64,000 nt of DNA from a virus. The translations under genes and the position numbers were made by a program. Every line of letters begins with the position of its first letter. The first letter of the stretch is position 1. The notes under the pieces were generated by a model. It saw only the letters and a program-made list of their open reading frames with translations, was not told the DNA's origin and searched no databases. The stretch spans positions 1 through 64,000 of the IMG/VR virus record IMGVR_UViG_3300025070_000022. One strand, 5' to 3'. This document shows, piece after piece, positions 13,439 through 36,014 of this stretch.

Positions 13439-13701
13439 GGGTTGGTGACAAAGTGGCTAACATTAGAACTATCCAAAGATTAGAAAAAATACTAAAGAAT
13501 GGTAGTAAAAACACAGCAGAAATACTAGATGAGTATAAAAATCGCTGGCCGAAGGAGTCTTCGGGGGGTAGTAAGATTGGTAATCTTCTATCTCGACACA
13601 AACAATTTAAAAAAATTGGAACCGAAACTGTAACGGCTGAATTCAGTCAATACAGTTACCCCGTCAATGTATGGATATTGACAAAAGAGCATATGGTGTA
13701 A
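13435..13701 (+). CDS. Winged-helix-like protein, 88 aa
   Basis: Starts at GTG 13435, overlapping the previous stop. The pattern RLEKILKNGSKNTAEILDEY, then IGNLLSRHKQFKKIG, then a strand pair ending NVWIL is that of a winged helix-turn-helix. It resembles three proteins at 27328-28045. Probably DNA binding. Its last 15 bases lie inside the tRNA-Arg gene. Confidence 0.6.
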   Translation: MRVGDKVANIRTIQRLEKILKNGSKNTAEILDEYKNRWPKESSGGSKIGNLLSRHKQFKKIGTETVTAEFSQYSYPVNVWILTKEHMV

Positions 13702-13758
13702 TGGATAGCATACTGGCCTTCTAAGCCGGTGATACGGGTTCGACTCCTGTTATGCTCG
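13687..13758 (+). tRNA. tRNA-Arg (anticodon UCU)
   Basis: Acceptor arms GAGCATA and TATGCTC pair fully. The anticodon arm CTGGC-CTTCTAA-GCCGG gives TCT, and the T arm is ACGGG-TTCGACT-CCTGT. Discriminator G is followed by encoded CCA (to 13761). Reads AGA, a common Arg codon in this window. Confidence 0.92.
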
Positions 13759-13763
13759 CCAAT

Positions 13764-13846
13764 GTCGGAGTGGTGGAGTAGGTCAAACACGCAGGGCTTA
13801 AACTCCTGTCCTAAATGGTTCGCAGGTTCAAATCCTGCCTCCGACA
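13764..13846 (+). tRNA. tRNA-Leu (anticodon UAA)
   Basis: Acceptor GTCGGAG pairs with CTCCGAC. The anticodon arm is CAGGG-CTTAAAC-TCCTG (TAA). A long variable arm follows, then the T arm GCAGG-TTCAAAT-CCTGC. Discriminator A fits leucine. No encoded CCA. Confidence 0.9.
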
Positions 13847-13851
13847 CCTAC

Positions 13852-13926
13852 GGAACAATAGCATAGTTTGGTTAATGCTCTCGGCTCATAACCGAGTGAC
13901 CACAGGTTCAAATCCTGTTTGTTCCA
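13852..13926 (+). tRNA. tRNA with CAU anticodon (Met or modified Ile)
   Basis: Acceptor GGAACAA pairs with TTGTTCC; D arm GCAT...ATGC; anticodon arm CTCGG-CTCATAA-CCGAG; T arm ACAGG-TTCAAAT-CCTGT; discriminator A. Either elongator Met or an AUA-reading Ile tRNA whose C34 is modified to agmatidine in archaea; sequence alone does not decide. Confidence 0.9.
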
Positions 13927-13943
13927 CTAATTCAAATAGTGTA

Positions 13944-16201: not shown

Positions 16202-16408
16202 ATGATTACACTACGAATTTTAAACGAAACAGGACACACACAAGTTGAGATGGCTTCTTCCGAAGTCATTGAACAAATCGACAACCATCCGACACACTGG
16301 ATTTTTGTCGATGGAGAGATGATTAGCCGTCAAGACCTTGCTGGTATCAATTGGGATACCGTCGCATCTATTGACCTAACCCCCGCTATTGTCGGAGGTT
16401 CTCTCTGA
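16202..16408 (+). CDS. Ubiquitin-like beta-grasp protein ending in GG-SL
   Basis: 68 aa from ATG 16202 (MITLRILNETG). The layout follows the beta-grasp fold: strand 1 ITLRILN, strand 2 TQVEMAS, helix SEVIEQIDN, strand HWIFVDGEMIS (compare ubiquitin's IFAGKQL), a loop NWDTVA and last strand SIDLTPAIVGG. The di-glycine is followed by only two residues (SL), as in precursors that a protease trims. An E1-like enzyme and a JAMM protease are encoded within 4 kb on the same strand. Likely a protein modifier or a sulfur carrier; experimental proof is absent. Confidence 0.6.
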   Translation: MITLRILNETGHTQVEMASSEVIEQIDNHPTHWIFVDGEMISRQDLAGINWDTVASIDLTPAIVGGSL

Positions 16409-16452
16409 GGTTGTCCTCTCCCCCATAACCAAAACTTTCCCCAAGTGAAACT

Positions 16453-16743
16453 ATGGCTCTCTTCCGAGATTTCGATGAGTGTAAGAAACTCGCTGTTCTT
16501 ATTCTTGACGATTTCTTGGAAGAGAGTCACCCCGATTACCAAAGAGTAGTCGAAAGAATCCGCTACGAAGAAACGAGCGGAAGAACAAGTAAGGCCCAAT
16601 GCTACATGGTCATTACAAAAATAAAACAAGCCCTATGGAATAGCAATATTGCTGTAGAAATAGGGTTTCATGCCTACCTAGAAAGAAAGGTAGTTCAAAA
16701 AAGATTCATTTTAGAATACCAAGAGGCGAATAAAGATGAGTAA
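16453..16743 (+). CDS. Hypothetical protein, 96 aa
   Basis: Begins MALFRDFDECKKLAVLI; helical, with no recognised motif. No clear ribosome-binding site in the 44-base gap after the ubiquitin-like gene, so the start may be weakly used. Overlaps the next gene. Confidence 0.55.
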   Translation: MALFRDFDECKKLAVLILDDFLEESHPDYQRVVERIRYEETSGRTSKAQCYMVITKIKQALWNSNIAVEIGFHAYLERKVVQKRFILEYQEANKDE

Positions 16744-16894
16744 AAACCCAGAATATACTAACAACAATCGAGGTCGCCCTATAGCGACCAAATGCAGAGT
16801 TTGTGGCGGCTCTTTAATAACACCACAAGACATGAAATTAGAGGCGCATGAACCCTGCCTCAAACAATACAAATCAAAAACATACATGATGTGA
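16736..16894 (+). CDS. 52-aa zinc-finger protein
   Basis: Begins MSKNPEYTNNNRGRPIATK, then CRVCGGSL and HEPC, consistent with a C-C-H-C zinc finger. The basic N-terminus could contact nucleic acid. Coupled by ATG overlap upstream. Confidence 0.6.
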   Translation: MSKNPEYTNNNRGRPIATKCRVCGGSLITPQDMKLEAHEPCLKQYKSKTYMM

Positions 16895-16898
16895 TAAT

Positions 16899-18188
16899 AT
16901 GCAAAGAACAATTAGATTTAATCGAGACATTACTCATGGTGGGCCGCTAACTTGTACGGTCCACTTTGAATACGAAGGGCAAATAATACAATGGACTCAG
17001 CACCAAGTAGGGTCTGTCTTCTCTTTCGACGCCAATGCTTTAGGGTCTGCTGACCCTATCTTAGAACAATGCACCTCCGCCTTTTATAGTACTCTAAAAG
17101 GAGCATATTCTAGAACCCAATGGTATAGAACTACAGCCCATTTGCGTAGAACTTTAGTGGCTGACGATATTATGTTTATCGTATCTTTCCCTACTTCCGG
17201 CCATACTGCTGAAGTCATAATCTCTAAGAAAGGTAGTTCCTATTCTATTAATGGAATTACTATGGCTAGAAAGCAAATAGCCCCTGTCTTGGCCCGTATT
17301 CTATTGGACCTTAATGCTAAGAGCAAGAGAAAGGTAATGACCTATAGAGATTGTAGAAATGTTGTCACTTCTGCGATTACAGTTCCCGAAGACATTCGAT
17401 ATGTACTAACTTCCCGACTACCTTACACTTACTATAGAGAAGGTAACACTGTCCAAGTGAGGCTAAAGGTTATGCAAATATCGGATGATGATTATGCCAT
17501 TGAGATTAGTTCTAATGTATGGGGTAAAATATCTTCAAAGAACTTATTGACTCTCATAGGATTCTATCGACACGGGAAGAAAGTCGGTAATTGGAAGTTC
17601 CTAAGCCCCAAGACTTTGTTTGAACGGCTAGTTGGTAGAGAACCTACAGACTCGGAAGTGAAACTAATGCATGCCTTCCTAGAACAAAACCGCTCGGAGA
17701 AGTTAGTACAAGAGAGAGCAATGACTTTGTTAGATGATTTGCTAAAACAATACCCTACTAGAGTCATTAGAAACGATTGTGCAGAAATGATTAGAATAAT
17801 CGTTTTGGGTAAATCTTGTGATTGGTTGCTAACTGGTAGCAAAGAATCTTTGAATCGAGTTACGATAGGCCCACAAGCAGTGGCGACTAGAACCATGTTG
17901 AATGAAACTTCTTCGGAGGGTGAAGGCTTTACTCAAATGAAGTGGGGTAGTAGTATTTGTATTAATACTGGAGGGAAGAACCCTTCCCTTGGCGACCAAT
18001 TTGCATCTAGAATTCTTTCCCTATTGAATGATACTATTACAATAGGTAGGGTTAGTACTCTAAGTTCTTACCTACACAAAGAGAAACCTAGGTTGGTTTT
18101 TGAGAATTTGAAAACCCGTCACTTTGCTAGTGATTTTAATGGAGATGTAAATAATGAATTGCTTAGAATGCCAGTCGAAGAAGTTTAG
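16899..18188 (+). CDS. Hypothetical protein, 429 aa
   Basis: Long, well-supported gene between the ubiquitin-like and TFB genes. Begins MQRTIRFNRDITHGG. Mixed alpha/beta; a middle helical segment (RAMTLLDDLLKQYPTRVIR) and a C-terminal SSICINTGGKNPSLGD stretch stand out, but no family is recognised. The end overlaps the TFB start by 35 bases. No cysteine or histidine pattern of an E2 enzyme was seen. Confidence 0.75.
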   Translation: MQRTIRFNRDITHGGPLTCTVHFEYEGQIIQWTQHQVGSVFSFDANALGSADPILEQCTSAFYSTLKGAYSRTQWYRTTAHLRRTLVADDIMFIVSFPTSGHTAEVIISKKGSSYSINGITMARKQIAPVLARILLDLNAKSKRKVMTYRDCRNVVTSAITVPEDIRYVLTSRLPYTYYREGNTVQVRLKVMQISDDDYAIEISSNVWGKISSKNLLTLIGFYRHGKKVGNWKFLSPKTLFERLVGREPTDSEVKLMHAFLEQNRSEKLVQERAMTLLDDLLKQYPTRVIRNDCAEMIRIIVLGKSCDWLLTGSKESLNRVTIGPQAVATRTMLNETSSEGEGFTQMKWGSSICINTGGKNPSLGDQFASRILSLLNDTITIGRVSTLSSYLHKEKPRLVFENLKTRHFASDFNGDVNNELLRMPVEEV

Positions 18189-19020
18189 TTTTGATGAGAA
18201 TTTAGGTGAAATGATTTGTGTAGATTGTGGCTTAGTTATGGTCACAGAACCCTTTGAGCAAGGCGTGTATTTACAAGATAACCAAGGCTCCATAATTAGG
18301 GAGAGATGGTCTTCCAATCTACATGAAATGGGACTACAAACAATAAAGAAAAAGACCATATCCTTCGCTCAAATTGAAAACAAAGCAGTGTATAAAGGAG
18401 TTTCAATGTGTAGGCTATTAATGGCTTCTCTAAAGATACCAAGGACTTCTGTCGTCTTTACTTCAGTCGAGGAACTGTATTTGTCATTATACCGAAGACA
18501 TACCTTCACTACAATACCTCTTGAAGATAGGGCGGCGGCACTAGTCTACTATTCTTTGAAGAATGAAGCACTGCCTTTCACGCTAAAAGAAGTGTGTGCA
18601 GAATTCGAGTGTAATAAGAGACTCGTATTTAAGTTGGCTAGGAAAATAGCAAAGGAAGAAAACAATACGGGAGTATTCCTAATAAAAGAATGTAGACCAT
18701 TTGCTGAAAAATATGCTATGTTGTTAGTAGAAGAACTAACCCACTACCCTTCTTATCTAAGAAAGGTTTCGCAGTTATCAATTTATTTTGATAACTTACT
18801 CTCTAAATCTAGTGAGAACATAAAACCAAGCACTCCAGCCGCCTACTGTTCTATTGTGGCTACTATGGAGAACATGAACATAACGAACAAGAAAATAGAA
18901 TCGGTTAGTGGTATTGGGTATGATGCCATTGGCCGAGAAGCCAAGAGACTTCTAAAAATAATTAATACCAATAAAAAACAAATAAAAGGAAAGGGAATAG
19001 AATGCCTAGAAAAATACTAA
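18154..19020 (+). CDS. tfb: Transcription initiation factor TFB (TFIIB-like)
   Basis: 288 aa. The N-terminal zinc ribbon (CLEC at 3-6, CVDCG near 22-26) matches the TFIIB ribbon that docks on RNA polymerase. A B-reader-like linker contains a conserved IRERW stretch. Two cyclin-like repeats follow: RAAALVYYSLKNEALPFTLKEV and the region around STPAAYCSIVATMEN. TFB recruits archaeal RNA polymerase to TBP-bound promoters. A viral copy would let the virus prefer its own promoters. It overlaps the E1-like gene. Confidence 0.88.
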   Translation: MNCLECQSKKFSFDENLGEMICVDCGLVMVTEPFEQGVYLQDNQGSIIRERWSSNLHEMGLQTIKKKTISFAQIENKAVYKGVSMCRLLMASLKIPRTSVVFTSVEELYLSLYRRHTFTTIPLEDRAAALVYYSLKNEALPFTLKEVCAEFECNKRLVFKLARKIAKEENNTGVFLIKECRPFAEKYAMLLVEELTHYPSYLRKVSQLSIYFDNLLSKSSENIKPSTPAAYCSIVATMENMNITNKKIESVSGIGYDAIGREAKRLLKIINTNKKQIKGKGIECLEKY

Positions 19021-19595
19021 TAATCGGAGCCGGTGGAATTGGGAGTTATCTCATTGACACCTTGAACAACCTAACAGGAAATGGAAGTTACGAGCGGGAA
19101 CTCTACGAGATTACCGTAAGCGACCCCGACACTGTAGAAGAAAAGAATGTGACATACCAACGCTTTACAACAGATAATGTTGGAAAGAACAAAGCGTTTG
19201 TTATGAAGTCTAACTATGAACAAGTAAAGATTGGAAACAAATATCCAATTTTAGTTGACGACCAATTGAAAGGATATGACCTAGTGGTTTGTTGCGTTGA
19301 TAATTTGAACACACGACGCATGCTATACAAGGCAAATGTAGAAGAAGTAAAGTGGCTAGACCTTCGTTCACAAGGAAGAAACGCCGCAATGATTTCTTAC
19401 TTAGCAGAACCAAACACCTATGATTCGCTATTGGCTGGTCCGGATGGTTCTTTCTCATGTCAAGGAGATTCTTGGGATGGTAGCAAGGAAGGTATTCATT
19501 TCATGCATGCTGTAATTGCTAGTATAGGCGCACAGTGGATACAACGCTGGTTTGTTGGAGAGAGTGTTAATGCGTTTATGGTGGTGAATGTATGA
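19002..19595 (+). CDS. E1-like ThiF/MoeB-family adenylyltransferase
   Basis: 197 aa. The Rossmann ATP site is IIGAGGIGS (residues about 6-14), followed by SDPDTVEEKNVTYQRF (D, N and R positions of the ThiF family), VGKNKA, and DLVVCCVDNLNTRRML. A lone cysteine in FSCQGDSW (about 148) could be the thioester cysteine. The family adenylates the C-terminal glycine of ubiquitin-like proteins. It lacks the CxxC zinc pairs of MoeB and is short, so it may be a minimal E1. Encoded just upstream of the JAMM protease. Confidence 0.85.
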   Translation: MPRKILIIGAGGIGSYLIDTLNNLTGNGSYERELYEITVSDPDTVEEKNVTYQRFTTDNVGKNKAFVMKSNYEQVKIGNKYPILVDDQLKGYDLVVCCVDNLNTRRMLYKANVEEVKWLDLRSQGRNAAMISYLAEPNTYDSLLAGPDGSFSCQGDSWDGSKEGIHFMHAVIASIGAQWIQRWFVGESVNAFMVVNV

Positions 19596-19849
19596 AGTGT
19601 TGTGTTTGTAAAGGCGACATACAAGAGCATAGTCACAACGGTAAAGTCTATTGGACGGAAGGGCATAACGCACAACCTTTGGTAGATGGCCGTTGCTGTG
19701 ACGATTGTAATAATTATGTGGTCGGATTTAGAATATTCTGTTTCACCAATCAATCTTTAAATAAAGAAGAATGGGGAATACAAAAACTACGATACATACA
19801 AGCGGCAGTTCAAGAGCAACTAATTAGAAGTAAGGAGGAAGAGGAATGA
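19592..19849 (+). CDS. Zinc-ribbon protein, 85 aa
   Basis: CCVCKGDIQ, GHNAQPL and CCDDCNN form the pattern of a small phage zinc-ribbon family (C-x-x-C ... GHNA-x-P ... GRCC-x-x-CN). It lies between the E1-like and JAMM genes with four-base overlaps on both sides, so it is cotranslated with them. Whether it takes part in the modifier pathway is unknown. Confidence 0.7.
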   Translation: MKCCVCKGDIQEHSHNGKVYWTEGHNAQPLVDGRCCDDCNNYVVGFRIFCFTNQSLNKEEWGIQKLRYIQAAVQEQLIRSKEEEE

Positions 19850-20436
19850 GTAGAAGCGGAGATTGGTACATAAAAGTACACGGAGAAGACGACGATAGAC
19901 ATGACTGGGGTGAAGCAGAAGCAGACCACGAAGCGCACTGTCAAGGTCTAATCGAGAAATTGATTAGAGATGGTTTTGATGGCGATTGGTCAGCAGTAGC
20001 ATTTCACAATTCTATTTGGGAGGCATCTACTGAAATTCTTAATGGATTGGAAGTACAAGTTGTTGTAGATGGTAAAGATAATCTACACATTTCTTTTGGT
20101 ACTGCTGGTTTTGTTTCCTTCAAGGTTGACCCTGTTGGAATGACTCTACCGATTAAGTGCTGGATTCATACTCACCCTTTCGGCTCTGCTTACTTTAGTG
20201 GTACTGACTGGAATACAGTTGGCAAGTGGGAGCCTTTGATGCACAATGCTATTGTTCTAGGTGGCATAGGTCACTATGGCATTTGGAATAATAAGCACCC
20301 CAAACATCTTGACATCTATCGTAATTTTGAATACGACAGAAGGCAACATAAGCGAGAATACAAACCTGCTGAAATTAAAACGACTATCAATGAAATGCTA
20401 CTAGAGAAGAATTGGGATAGAGGTGAAGAAGAATGA
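19846..20436 (+). CDS. JAMM/MPN+ metalloprotease (JAB-like)
   Basis: 196 aa. The signature H-x-H-x7-S-x-x-D is complete in IHTHPFGSAYFSGTDW (about residues 104-119), the zinc site of JAB1/MPN+ isopeptidases and of prokaryotic proteases that process ubiquitin-like proteins. An acidic, His-rich N-terminal region (about 1-45) precedes it. The likely task is trimming the SL tail of the ubiquitin-like precursor or removing the modifier from targets. Ends RGEEE with a coupled downstream start. Confidence 0.82.
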   Translation: MSRSGDWYIKVHGEDDDRHDWGEAEADHEAHCQGLIEKLIRDGFDGDWSAVAFHNSIWEASTEILNGLEVQVVVDGKDNLHISFGTAGFVSFKVDPVGMTLPIKCWIHTHPFGSAYFSGTDWNTVGKWEPLMHNAIVLGGIGHYGIWNNKHPKHLDIYRNFEYDRRQHKREYKPAEIKTTINEMLLEKNWDRGEEE

Positions 20437-20573
20437 AGCAAAGCGAAGCAGAGAACATGGACGATGAAGATTTTAGAGAATGGTGGATAAACGAAGTGAG
20501 TGGTATTCCCAAAGGCGAATTGATTCAACTGTTTATGACTGTCGAATGGCAACTCATAGAGGTGGATAAATGA
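20433..20573 (+). CDS. 46-aa acidic protein
   Basis: Begins MKQSEAENMDDEDF; helical, acidic. ATGA overlaps on both sides. Function unknown. Confidence 0.5.
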   Translation: MKQSEAENMDDEDFREWWINEVSGIPKGELIQLFMTVEWQLIEVDK

Positions 20574-21160
20574 ATATATTTGCATTAACCAAAGACCCAG
20601 TACTATCAGCACAACAGATGTTAGACAAGCATGTGGTAAAAATGCCAACAGAAAGTTGTCAAATGTTGCACACAAACAGTCTGTATTTCCATTACAAAAG
20701 CGTTTATGGTACAGAACCTTCTCTCAAAGAATTGAAAGAATTTCATGTATTCATCAACTCTAAATTGATGAAGCCAGCCATGCTCAATCATCCTAGCACT
20801 ATTTGGGCAAGAACAACAAAGGCTAACTACATGTGGCTCTACAAACATGCCATTGCTCTATGTAAAGAATACACATTTAGGTATGGTAAGATTCACGGTA
20901 CAGAAAAAAGAATTGGCGACAGTTTCACTTTCTCTTATGAAGAAGAGGACTTAACTCCTGTGTCTATTGCTATGGCTGATATTTACCGTCTACCAAAGGA
21001 AAGACACAGTTGGGACTTTGTTATCAAGTCTTATCGTCACTATTACCTACAAGGTAAGTGGGACTTTGCTACTTGGAAAAAAGATAGAAGACCGGAATGG
21101 TGGCCCGAAAATCACTATCATAATATGATAAAGAATAGAAAACCCTTTGGAGGTAATTGA
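20570..21160 (+). CDS. Conserved-looking phage protein, 196 aa
   Basis: Begins MNIFALTKDPVLSAQQMLDKHVVKM. The D-P-x-x-S/A-A-Q-x-x-x-D-K-H-V-V-K-M opening recalls a protein family widespread in phages whose role is not settled. Later conserved-looking parts include HPSTIWART and the Trp-rich C-terminus. Possibly a DNA-acting enzyme. No catalytic assignment is made. Confidence 0.65.
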   Translation: MNIFALTKDPVLSAQQMLDKHVVKMPTESCQMLHTNSLYFHYKSVYGTEPSLKELKEFHVFINSKLMKPAMLNHPSTIWARTTKANYMWLYKHAIALCKEYTFRYGKIHGTEKRIGDSFTFSYEEEDLTPVSIAMADIYRLPKERHSWDFVIKSYRHYYLQGKWDFATWKKDRRPEWWPENHYHNMIKNRKPFGGN

Positions 21161-32335: not shown

Positions 32336-34081
32336 ATGATAATCTCACATAATAATTCAAATATTTACATATCGTGGAGAGAAAATGGTACTAAGCACGA
32401 TTCTACTATTCCGTTTCGCCCATACTTTTTTGTGGAAGAGACTAGTAAGGAACCACCTACTTACCAGCCTAGTAAGTACATTACTAGGGAAATAGAATAC
32501 GAGAGAGGCGATTGGGTTAATCTTGAAGGTACTCGATTGAAGAAAGTCTATGCAGAAATGCCGGAAGACTTGAGGAATTTGAAGAGTTCCTTTTCTAGAA
32601 CTTACGAGGCTGATGTACCTTACCCCTACAGATATTGTGTAGACCGATTAGAAGAAATCAAAGAGTACGATATGCGTAAGTGGTATTGGGATATGGAATG
32701 GCAACAAGGTGGAGAACACCATGATAAGATTACTACTATTGTAATGTATGATAATTACGATAAGGAATACTATCAATGGGTTTGGTTTCCCGACCAAGAA
32801 CCCTATGATGGATTCAAAGCCTCCACTGATAAAGCACAACATTTATCGGTCTTTAATACAGAAGAAGAAATGATTGAATCTTTCTTGACTACAATGATAG
32901 AGAAAGACCCCGACATGTTAATTGCATGGTTTGGTAATTGGGCCGACCTTCCTAAGTTGTTTTCTAGATGTGCCTTCTACGATATTGACCCTAGCGTTAT
33001 TTCTCCTTTGGGAGTTGTTGATGGTATAAAGGTCAAAGACGGTAAGGTAAGATTCACTAAAGAAGAGAATGGCTATCACGCTACTGCTCAACCCATCCGA
33101 GGTAGGATTACACTAAACTTGGACATGGCTTTTGAAAGACAATGGAATGATGCACAAAAAGGCACACTACCTAGTCTCTCTCTAGATTATGTTTCTACTG
33201 CATTATTCGGTGAAGGTAAATCTAAGGAAACTAAATTTGAAGATGCTAACGAGTTTTATCGTAGAGGTTGGCTAGAAGACACTCAAGCCTACTTGAAGTA
33301 TGCTTTGATAGATGTAGAATTACTAGTAAAGATTGATGAAACTAACTTCTGTAGTGAAGCCATTCTTTCTTTACAGCGATTACTAATTGCTCCTTTCGAT
33401 GCTTGCTTCTTTGCTTCTAACATGGGTTCAATCTACTTTATGAGAAACGCTTGGTGGAAAGCCCCAACGGGAGAGAAGCCTAAGTTCAAAGTCTGCGATA
33501 AGTGCAATCATAAGAATCCAAACGAGAAGACACTAAGAGAGTGTAAGAAGTGCGGAGCAAGCCTATCTTATTCGGGTGCTATGATTTACAATCCTACTGA
33601 CGAAGGTACTAACGGGTTGCATTACAATGTAGCCGCTTTTGACTTTGCTGGTCTTTATCCTAGTATGATTATTGCTAGGAATATCTCGTTTGAAACTCTT
33701 ACAGAAGAGCCAACACTATTCAGTGCTGACTTGAATACTCCACAGAATCTACAGCCCGTAGCAGAAGACTACGAGAAAGACATGCGCTATTTCAAGACTG
33801 ACGAATTGGGACTATTGCCTCGCTCTCTTATCGACTTGAAAGAGTTGAGAGGCGAGTACAAGAAGTACATGAAAGAGGCTAGGAAGGCTGGAGATAAGGA
33901 GGCTGTTGTTAAGTGGAACAACAATCAAATGGCTGTAAAGCGTTTGATGGCTTCCTTCTATGGTATCCTTGCCTTCAAGGGATTCGGTTGGGCGAATGTA
34001 GACCTAGCCGCTAGCATTACTGCTAGTGCAAGAGAGGCTATTCGTAAGGCCGCATTTACAGCAAGGGAGATGGAAGGATGA
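32336..34081 (+). CDS. polB: Family B DNA polymerase, N-terminal part
   Basis: 581 aa. Exonuclease motifs: WYWDMEW (Exo I, D-x-E), AWFGNWADL (Exo II), YALIDVELL (Exo III). Then a zinc-binding insert CDKCNHK...CKKCG (about 383-405), palm motif A FDFAGLYPSM and motif B NQMAVKRLMASFYG. The frame stops at AREMEG, just before where motif C belongs. The remainder is encoded 1 kb downstream. Replicative polymerase with proofreading; the two chains must assemble. Confidence 0.93.
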   Translation: MIISHNNSNIYISWRENGTKHDSTIPFRPYFFVEETSKEPPTYQPSKYITREIEYERGDWVNLEGTRLKKVYAEMPEDLRNLKSSFSRTYEADVPYPYRYCVDRLEEIKEYDMRKWYWDMEWQQGGEHHDKITTIVMYDNYDKEYYQWVWFPDQEPYDGFKASTDKAQHLSVFNTEEEMIESFLTTMIEKDPDMLIAWFGNWADLPKLFSRCAFYDIDPSVISPLGVVDGIKVKDGKVRFTKEENGYHATAQPIRGRITLNLDMAFERQWNDAQKGTLPSLSLDYVSTALFGEGKSKETKFEDANEFYRRGWLEDTQAYLKYALIDVELLVKIDETNFCSEAILSLQRLLIAPFDACFFASNMGSIYFMRNAWWKAPTGEKPKFKVCDKCNHKNPNEKTLRECKKCGASLSYSGAMIYNPTDEGTNGLHYNVAAFDFAGLYPSMIIARNISFETLTEEPTLFSADLNTPQNLQPVAEDYEKDMRYFKTDELGLLPRSLIDLKELRGEYKKYMKEARKAGDKEAVVKWNNNQMAVKRLMASFYGILAFKGFGWANVDLAASITASAREAIRKAAFTAREMEG

Positions 34082-34955: not shown

Positions 34956-35128
34956 ATTTACCTTACTGGTATTTAACAGAACTAACTCATAGTCCAGTTG
35001 GAGAATTACTATATTTTACGATAGTTTTGATTCCGTTTAGACTTGCTTTAAAATATTTATACAAGAGTTGGAAAAGTAATGATAGACAACCTAGTTTTTG
35101 GGATGATTACGATACGGAGGTTCGATAA
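34952..35128 (+). CDS. 58-aa membrane-associated protein
   Basis: Starts at GTG 34952, overlapping the upstream stop. The hydrophobic stretch ELLYFTIVLIPFRLALKYLY is a likely membrane segment; the tail is polar. Its end carries the GGAGG used by the polymerase C-part. Confidence 0.5.
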   Translation: MNLPYWYLTELTHSPVGELLYFTIVLIPFRLALKYLYKSWKSNDRQPSFWDDYDTEVR

Positions 35129-35129
35129 T

Positions 35130-36014
35130 ATGGAAGTAGTTTATGGACACACAGACTCAATCTATGTCAAGGTAGATTCTATAGAGTCGGCCTTTTCATC
35201 TCTCGAAAAAATAAATGAAGAAGTTAGAACTATCTTTCCTAATTTACTAGGCCTAGAAGAACACCCTGTTATTCTAGAATTTGAGAAATACTTTGAATCA
35301 TTAGGTGTAGGAATTACAAAAAACAGAAACGCTGGTTTAATTTCTTGGGAAGATGGAGTTTGGTTAGACGAGCCTAAATTTACTCTAACAGGATTTACTT
35401 CTAAGAGAATTTCCGAAACAACAACGATGAAAGAAGTTCAAACAGTGGCCCTCAATATGTGGGTTTCCGGTAAATCGGAACTAGAAATAGTCGATTACGC
35501 TAAGTCTGTTTATGCCAAAGTCCTTTATGGGGAAATCAATTACCGTGAAGTAGCAAAAAGAACTAGACTAAAGAAAGAGAGATTCCAAGTCAAATGTACC
35601 TGTAATAGAAAGTACGACATTAGAGAAATATCTTGGACTGATGGTGAGTTCTTTTGTGGAAAGTGTGCAAAACACCCTTCTAAGTTCCTAACAGCCAAGG
35701 GAAAGAAGCCGACTATAAGCGAAGGCATTGTAGGTGTATTGTATTCCATGCAAGAAAGAAACCTTACCTTTGAAGACTCCTATGTATTCTTAAGAATAAG
35801 ACCAGTTGGATTCTTTACTGACCCCTTAACCGGAGTTCGTAAAGAAGCCACTTATGTTTCCGGAAATACTTTTTCCGAGATAGAGGGTTTTGAACCCGAT
35901 TGGCCCCACTACGCCGAACAAGTAGTGAAAAAAGTACAACCCATTTTCGATGCTATGGGTTGGGATACTAAACAAATTAAAACTAAGCAACGAACTTTTG
36001 ATGAATGGTGGTAA
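35130..36014 (+). CDS. polB: Family B DNA polymerase, C-terminal part
   Basis: 294 aa from ATG 35130 behind ACGGAGGTTCGATAAT. It begins MEVVYGHTDS, so palm motif C (Y-G-D-T-D-S) is at its very start, with the first Asp replaced by His and the second kept. Thumb-domain features follow, with a zinc-binding site (CTCNRKY...CGKCAKH). It ends KQRTFDEWW, a PIP-box-like Q-x-x-h-x-x-a-a motif suited to binding the viral clamp. An upstream frame opening at 35079 lacks a ribosome-binding site. Confidence 0.9.
   Translation: MEVVYGHTDSIYVKVDSIESAFSSLEKINEEVRTIFPNLLGLEEHPVILEFEKYFESLGVGITKNRNAGLISWEDGVWLDEPKFTLTGFTSKRISETTTMKEVQTVALNMWVSGKSELEIVDYAKSVYAKVLYGEINYREVAKRTRLKKERFQVKCTCNRKYDIREISWTDGEFFCGKCAKHPSKFLTAKGKKPTISEGIVGVLYSMQERNLTFEDSYVFLRIRPVGFFTDPLTGVRKEATYVSGNTFSEIEGFEPDWPHYAEQVVKKVQPIFDAMGWDTKQIKTKQRTFDEWW

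Follow-up and report, generated by a model that had tools for sequence, protein, structure and literature searches.

What would a virus do with a ubiquitin-like modifier, an activating enzyme and a protease of its own? The question is raised by the IMG/VR virus record IMGVR_UViG_3300025070_000022, in which the first 64,000 bases of 89,940 bp make up the stretch that we analyzed, called here the window. Positions 16,202 to 20,436 hold, on the plus strand, genes for a ubiquitin-like protein (Ubl), an E1-like adenylyltransferase and a JAMM metalloprotease. The initial annotation, made without database searches, had described this as a virus-encoded modifier with its E1-like enzyme and JAMM protease, and our analysis supports that description. 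Each of the features it named is present where it was placed, including the Ubl, the E1 motifs GAGGIGS and DNLNTRR, the JAMM motif, and a zinc-ribbon gene joined in by ATGA overlaps. We find that the three genes belong to the core of a group of related viruses, and give somewhat better than even chances to the reading that they form an E2-independent system of Ubl conjugation and deconjugation resembling the archaeal SAMP/UbaA/JAMM systems.

The ubiquitin-like protein

The Ubl is encoded at 16202-16408 on the plus strand as a protein of 68 residues, and is identified by its open reading frame (ORF), its homologues and an AlphaFold2 model. Its C-terminus reads AIVGGSL, which is a GG end followed by the tail SL. 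An in-frame GTG upstream would lengthen it to 80 residues; the alignment favors the ATG at 16202. Homologues were gathered from the 97 viral loci of our first two scans, giving 45 distinct full-length Ubls that align free of gaps over 66 residues. All 45 close the domain with VGG (AIVGG in 44, AVVGG in 1), so that the GG is indeed conserved in homologues standing beside the E1 and JAMM genes. After the GG come two residues in 34 Ubls, one residue in 1 and none in 10. The two-residue tails vary among SL, NL, SY, NY, HY, QY, SC and others, and they differ even between near-identical neighbors, being SY, QY and LY in loci L040, L045 and L049, which makes them look like discardable sequence. When the tail-less state is mapped on the E1 protein tree, at least 3 gains or losses are needed to account for it.

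A fold other than beta-grasp had been named beforehand as grounds for giving up the modifier, and the protein is predicted to be a beta-grasp protein close to MoaD and ThiS. The AlphaFold2 model, made with 42 sequences, has the order beta-beta-alpha-beta-beta-(helix)-beta with a predicted local distance difference test (pLDDT) score of 79.7 and a disordered C-terminal end. VIA-align fills its top 5 places with MoaD (3rpf, 5mpo, 6jc0, 6jbz) and ThiS (1zud) at middling scores of Z = 5.0 to 5.6, and the ranks below these are nearly all SUMO, ubiquitin and other Ubls. Foldseek has no match to the model at E ≤ 0.001, though Ubls dominate its list. By sequence, the Ubl found no meaningful match in a PDB profile search and no match among the NCBIfam and Prok_Ub profiles.

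Lysine is scarce in these proteins. The window Ubl has a lysine count of 0, and across the 45 there are 17 with none and 26 with one, mostly at position 3, where the composition of the virus would predict about 5.1. Such a lack is expected if self-tagging is avoided. A host origin of the Ubl was considered and rejected, in that a profile scan of 84,980 species genomes matched only 3 contigs of a single Altibacter metagenome-assembled genome, EAC109. Since further genes of the virus group are present on those contigs (L099-L101), they are probably viral binning contamination. The divergent Ubl on L101, 47% identical and accompanied by an E1 gene and the beginning of a JAMM gene, still ends in AIVGG-QN.

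The E1-like adenylyltransferase

The ThiF/E1-like protein of 197 residues is encoded at 19002-19595 on the plus strand, and is recognized by Pfam ThiF, by residue conservation and by PDB profile matches. Pfam ThiF (PF00899) scores 58.3 bits against a cutoff of 28.1, with E = 8 × 10−16, and the PDB profile matches include UBA5, MccB, NEDD8 E1, Uba4, Cap2, MoeB and ThiF. The best NCBIfam profile is PRTRC_ThiF with E = 1.7 × 10−15, at 57 bits where the cutoff is 144.75. The protein has no C-terminal rhodanese and no zinc CxxC pair.

At or near 100% conservation in 75 distinct E1s are GxGGIGS, D41, D43, K48, N49, Y52, Q53, K64, Q88, D100, N101, R105, R122, R126, N127 and C153. The last of these lies in SFSCQGDSWDG, is invariant, and is a candidate for the catalytic Cys; its correspondence with the Cys loop of MoeB/UBA4 was drawn by eye from motif order, as automatic alignment did not fix the placement. 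The adenylation residues listed for MoeB are Gly41, Arg73, Lys86 and Asp130 (PMC12355090). Counting from NxxxQ, K64 takes the place of Lys86 and D100 the place of Asp130, so both of these are kept, as is the Gly motif.

The JAMM protease

The JAMM/MPN+ metalloprotease of 196 residues is encoded at 19846-20436 on the plus strand, and is identified by its motif, by Prok-JAB and by an AlphaFold2 model. The motif is HTHPFGSAYFSGTD, in the pattern HxH-x7-SxxD. The JAMM signature has been given as E-xn-H(S/T)H-x7-S-x2-D (PMC300881), and E69, H108, H110, S118 and D121 are invariant in 74 distinct JAMMs, which is the full signature as E-xn-HTH-x7-SxxD. Prok-JAB scores the window JAMM under its cutoff (E = 0.0054), while 14 of 15 family members match it, the best at 1.7 × 10−4. 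The AlphaFold2 model has a pLDDT of 76.6. Closest to it are two structures of Pyrococcus furiosus JAMM1, one of the free enzyme (5ld9, Z = 9.0) and one of its complex with SAMP2 (5lda, Z = 8.9), followed by AMSH and Rpn11, all with Z of 8 to 9. The profile made from this protease has matches in 316 stretches of the viral collection. Its active site is intact in all 10 lineages in which the Ubl is tail-less, which argues for a function in addition to trimming.

Conservation across the virus group

The trio is a set of core genes of the virus group, not passengers. The order Ubl, 52-residue zinc finger, P429, TFB, E1, JAMM and chaperonin is largely fixed. The E1 led to nearly all of the 28 large related records that we compared. 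All 28 have a JAMM and 27 have a Ubl, and the one contig lacking it stops immediately short of the place where the Ubl should be. Ten more records were picked via PolB, with E1 found in 6 and Ubl in 4, and every miss falls at or beyond a contig end. Ubl and JAMM are single-copy in each large record except for one of 184,733 bp (L051, G024), which has two of each and probably represents a double virus contig, either concatenated or chimeric.

Where dN/dS could be estimated, it is about 0.1 to 0.25 for Ubl, E1 and JAMM, indicating purifying selection. Ubls are 55 to 85% identical among neighbors. TFB and P429 are about 25 to 45% identical outside the closest clade, and are thus less conserved.

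Conjugation or sulfur transfer

The main point to decide is what the trio does. From the genes, their folds, the conserved catalytic residues and the fixed co-occurrence, we infer the following steps and targets. Where a tail of 1 or 2 residues exists, the JAMM or a host protease would trim it, exposing the GG. The E1-like protein would then adenylate the GG end and may carry the Ubl as a thioester on Cys153. The Ubl would pass straight to lysines on proteins of the virus or its host, with no dedicated E2 or E3, and the JAMM would strip the tag again and recycle the Ubl. Since the genes lie beside the viral TFB in the replication and transcription block, the likeliest targets would be host or viral proteins of transcription or replication, which is a guess. 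Archaea do use a modifier, a single E1 and a JAMM to tag lysines and remove the tags, and a TATA-binding protein is among the targets documented (PMC4895103). The initial annotation had also suggested that virion proteins might be modified; there is no direct support for this, and the trio and the virion genes are on opposite strands.

We prefer conjugation because of that archaeal precedent, because the JAMM is intact where there is no tail, and because genes that a sulfur pathway would call for were not found. Rhodanese and PP-loop thiolase searches found none in the 89.9-kb record, with control searches positive in 13 of 14 and 14 of 14 genomes, and no sulfur-acceptor or cofactor enzyme is among the listed Pfam matches of the record. 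A JAMM role beyond trimming together with the lack of a rhodanese and a PP-loop thiolase favors conjugation without proving it.

Several points weigh against conjugation and have to be set beside this. The position of MoeB Arg73 is an invariant Tyr52 in the viral E1s, and with the N-terminus too short to provide an Arg from the partner subunit, canonical adenylation is not assured. E2 family searches had no match in the record, but they matched no control either. ThiS-type sulfur carriers share the fold and the GG end of the viral Ubl. Short JAMM-trimmed tails occur on some sulfur carriers, as in the QbsE/QbsD pair of the siderophore thioquinolobactin, and Escherichia coli ThiS has no lysine, like the window Ubl. 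The lysine poverty described above is therefore weak support for conjugation, because ThiS-type carriers can lack lysine as well. Furthermore, neighborhoods of a ThiS/MoaD-like protein with an E1 and a JAB are a known bacterial sulfur-transfer set (PMC1779556).

These points lead to the strongest of the other explanations, that the Ubl is a sulfur carrier. The JAMM would trim the tail, the E1 would adenylate the GG, and a thiocarboxylate would form, from which a tRNA, nucleotide, cofactor or protein would receive sulfur by way of host sulfurtransferases. That MoaD and ThiS are the structures nearest to the modifier speaks for it, as do the 3 clustered tRNA genes carried by the virus, Arg(TCT), Leu(TAA) and Met(CAT), at 13687-13927. 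The missing rhodanese and PP-loop thiolase speak against it, although host enzymes could substitute, and so does the lack of a sulfur acceptor among the listed Pfam matches. The intact JAMM of the tail-less lineages is unexpected if it only trims, although release of an adduct, as in CysO/Mec+, is conceivable. The tRNAs that usually have wobble 2-thiouridine (s2U34) are those for Lys, Glu and Gln. The viral tRNAs, Arg-UCU, Leu-UAA and Met-CAU, are not among these usual targets, and with the missing thiolation enzymes this disfavors the suggestion in the initial annotation that viral tRNAs are thiolated. On balance we consider a sulfur carrier unlikely, but a serious competitor. The initial annotation had left the pathway as either SAMP-like conjugation or sulfur transfer; the SAMP-like half is the likelier fit, given that the JAMM has P. 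furiosus JAMM1, free or bound to SAMP2, as its nearest structure.

A third explanation is that the set disturbs a Ubl pathway of the host, either SAMP tagging or a defense of the Bil or CBASS kind, for example with the JAMM stripping tags or the Ubl occupying the host E1. The trio stands among early-type genes, the JAMM resembles the archaeal desampylase JAMM1, and bacterial defense does employ Ubl conjugation against phages (PMC10097602). A decoy, however, has no need of its own conserved E1 with an invariant Cys, all 3 genes are conserved together as core, and the PADLOC matches are to the generic E1 domain only. Hence, we regard counter-defense as improbable. Finally, a tail-assembly Ubl/JAB pair like lambda TAPI/TAPK might be brought to mind by the tailed nature of the virus and by phages whose tail cluster includes a Ubl and a JAB (PMC1779556). 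Such a pair is very improbable here and was rejected on location and domain content, since the genes are in the replication block opposite in strand to the virion genes, Pfam finds no NlpC/P60 domain in the JAMM protein, and the conserved E1 is absent from TAPI/TAPK clusters.

Comparison with known systems

Among known systems, the viral set can be compared first with archaeal SAMP/UbaA/JAMM, represented by SAMP1-3, UbaA and HvJAMM1 of Haloferax volcanii and by SAMP2-JAMM1 of P. furiosus. Shared are a beta-grasp GG modifier, a single non-canonical E1 and a JAMM, with the viral JAMM model closest to the P. furiosus enzyme. The archaeal systems require no E2, and E2 searches of the viral record came up empty, as they did in their controls. 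Unlike the archaeal systems, the viral set has its 3 genes in one block, and most of its modifiers have a 2-residue tail. Unlike UbaA, the viral E1 is shorter, is nearer by profile to PRTRC ThiF, and has Tyr in place of MoeB Arg73.

That profile match directs attention to the PRTRC systems of bacterial plasmids, with PRTRC_ThiF, the Ubl protein C, and protein A, which we take to be a JAB. The composition of Ubl, E1 and JAB is in common, and PRTRC has the nearest E1 family. However, no PRTRC ParB or B partner is recognized in the virus, and the protein C Ubl of Marinobacter ends in a single G and is not similar in sequence to the viral one (hhalign 0.2%). With the E1 far under the PRTRC_ThiF cutoff and the Ubl not a protein C, membership in PRTRC was rejected.

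The tailed Bacteroides phage crAss001, of about 100 kb, has a ThiF-like gp76 adjoining a JAMM, gp77, like the E1 and JAMM here. At this locus (L104, MH675552.1, 2244-6654), gp77 is annotated only as a metalloprotease and has the JAMM motif HSHNNMATFFSGTD and a Prok-JAB match at 4.9 × 10−4. Differences are that gp76 has a long N-terminal extension and that in gp77 the JAMM is fused with additional regions. By eye, gp79 is a candidate Ubl with a beta-grasp look, but it lacks a GG end and does not resemble the viral Ubl in sequence. The adjacency of gp76 and gp77 puts E1-JAMM pairs in a bacterial virus also. A set of Ubl, JAMM and E1 may be found in Crassvirales too, and the relation between the archaeal-virus and crAss001 genes may be distant.

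With ThiS-ThiF, MoaD-MoeB and the JAMM-processed sulfur carriers QbsE/QbsD, HcyS/HcyD and CysO/Mec+, the viral set has in common the modifier fold and the GG end, and some of those have short JAMM-trimmed tails. It differs from them in that no rhodanese, acceptor or cofactor genes were found in the virus and the JAMM is kept in tail-less lineages. With the bacterial anti-phage systems CBASS Cap2/Cap3, Bil and Bub, the similarity is Ubl-type conjugation and a JAB protease at the virus-host interface, and the viral E1 weakly matches PADLOC E1-E2 models. Those are host defenses with an E2 part, whereas here the set is viral, with no E2 found in searches whose controls were silent too.

Neighboring genes

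Between the E1 and JAMM genes there is a zinc-ribbon-like ORF of 85 residues (19592-19849, plus strand), joined to each of them by an ATGA overlap of 4 nucleotides. The initial annotation counted it with the system, but only 20 of the roughly 97 loci have a homologue (10 distinct sequences), so it is clade-specific, and we rejected it as a core component. A different zinc-finger protein, of 52 residues, is encoded downstream of the Ubl (16736-16894, plus strand) in an order conserved in 83 loci. It has C20, C23, H38 and C41 invariant as CxxC...HxxC, and is possibly an accessory, an adaptor or a nucleic-acid binder. Next is P429, a conserved protein of 429 residues between Ubl and TFB (16899-18188, plus strand; 87 loci), with no PDB profile match and no convincing Pfam match, which is also possibly an accessory. 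P361 (15103-16188) likewise has no PDB profile match, and profile searches could show neither P361 nor P429 to be an E2 or E3.

The TFIIB/TFB-like factor (18154-19020, plus strand) has a TFIIB zinc-binding domain by Pfam at 4.7 × 10−8. Its 3' end overlaps the start of the E1 gene by 19 nucleotides, which is likely to be translational coupling in this clade. On the other side of the JAMM, window positions 20570-21160 encode a pyrimidine-dimer glycosylase-like protein (phrog_624, 3.4 × 10−49), whose location relative to the E1-JAMM pair shifts between clades.

Genome setting

The plus-strand block in which Ubl, E1 and JAMM are found runs from about 10 to 42 kb, and includes genes for a UvrD-type helicase, TFB, a Cpn60-type chaperonin, an ATP-dependent ligase, RFC, PolB and an ERCC4-type nuclease. 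The minus strand has, by Pfam matches, the portal, prohead protease, SU10-type capsid, tail tube and terminase genes. No proteasome core was found in the virus. The published description of Magrovirales, whose members are tailed viruses infecting Marine Group II/Poseidoniales archaea (PMC12999244), agrees with this record in gene set, genome size and two-strand layout. By this match to a description, we infer that the record is a tailed archaeal virus of the magrovirus type with a Marine Group II archaeon as host. In another magrovirus, a tRNA-Arg-TCT is reported to be identical to a host gene (PMC5628999). The PolB domain matches in the window are divided over 2 ORFs about 1 kb apart, at 32336-34078 and 35079-36011. 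In the first, residues ~384-411 are variable among related records and CxxC-rich in the window, possibly a zinc insert.

Significance

Prokaryotic Ubl tagging is known as host housekeeping, in sulfur transfer and in host anti-phage defense. What is new is a complete, virus-owned and strictly conserved trio of Ubl, E1 and JAMM in archaeal viruses. Our literature search found magroviruses never linked with ubiquitin or ThiF, and the magrovirus papers that it covered do not mention the trio. The main genome papers, on magroviruses in 2017 and Poseidoniales viruses in 2025, were outside its reach, so an earlier annotation of single genes is possible.

The complete set is core in a large virus group of uncultured and very abundant marine archaea, and it is small, at 68, 197 and 196 residues. 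The broader proposal, that magroviruses own a complete, reversible protein-tagging set, fixed throughout the group, with which they mark host or viral proteins such as transcription factors during infection, we put at slightly under even chances. If the set does conjugate, it would be a virus-owned, E2-free tagging system and a simple model for the origin of ubiquitin signaling, and it would give the virus a route to reprogram the archaeal cell.

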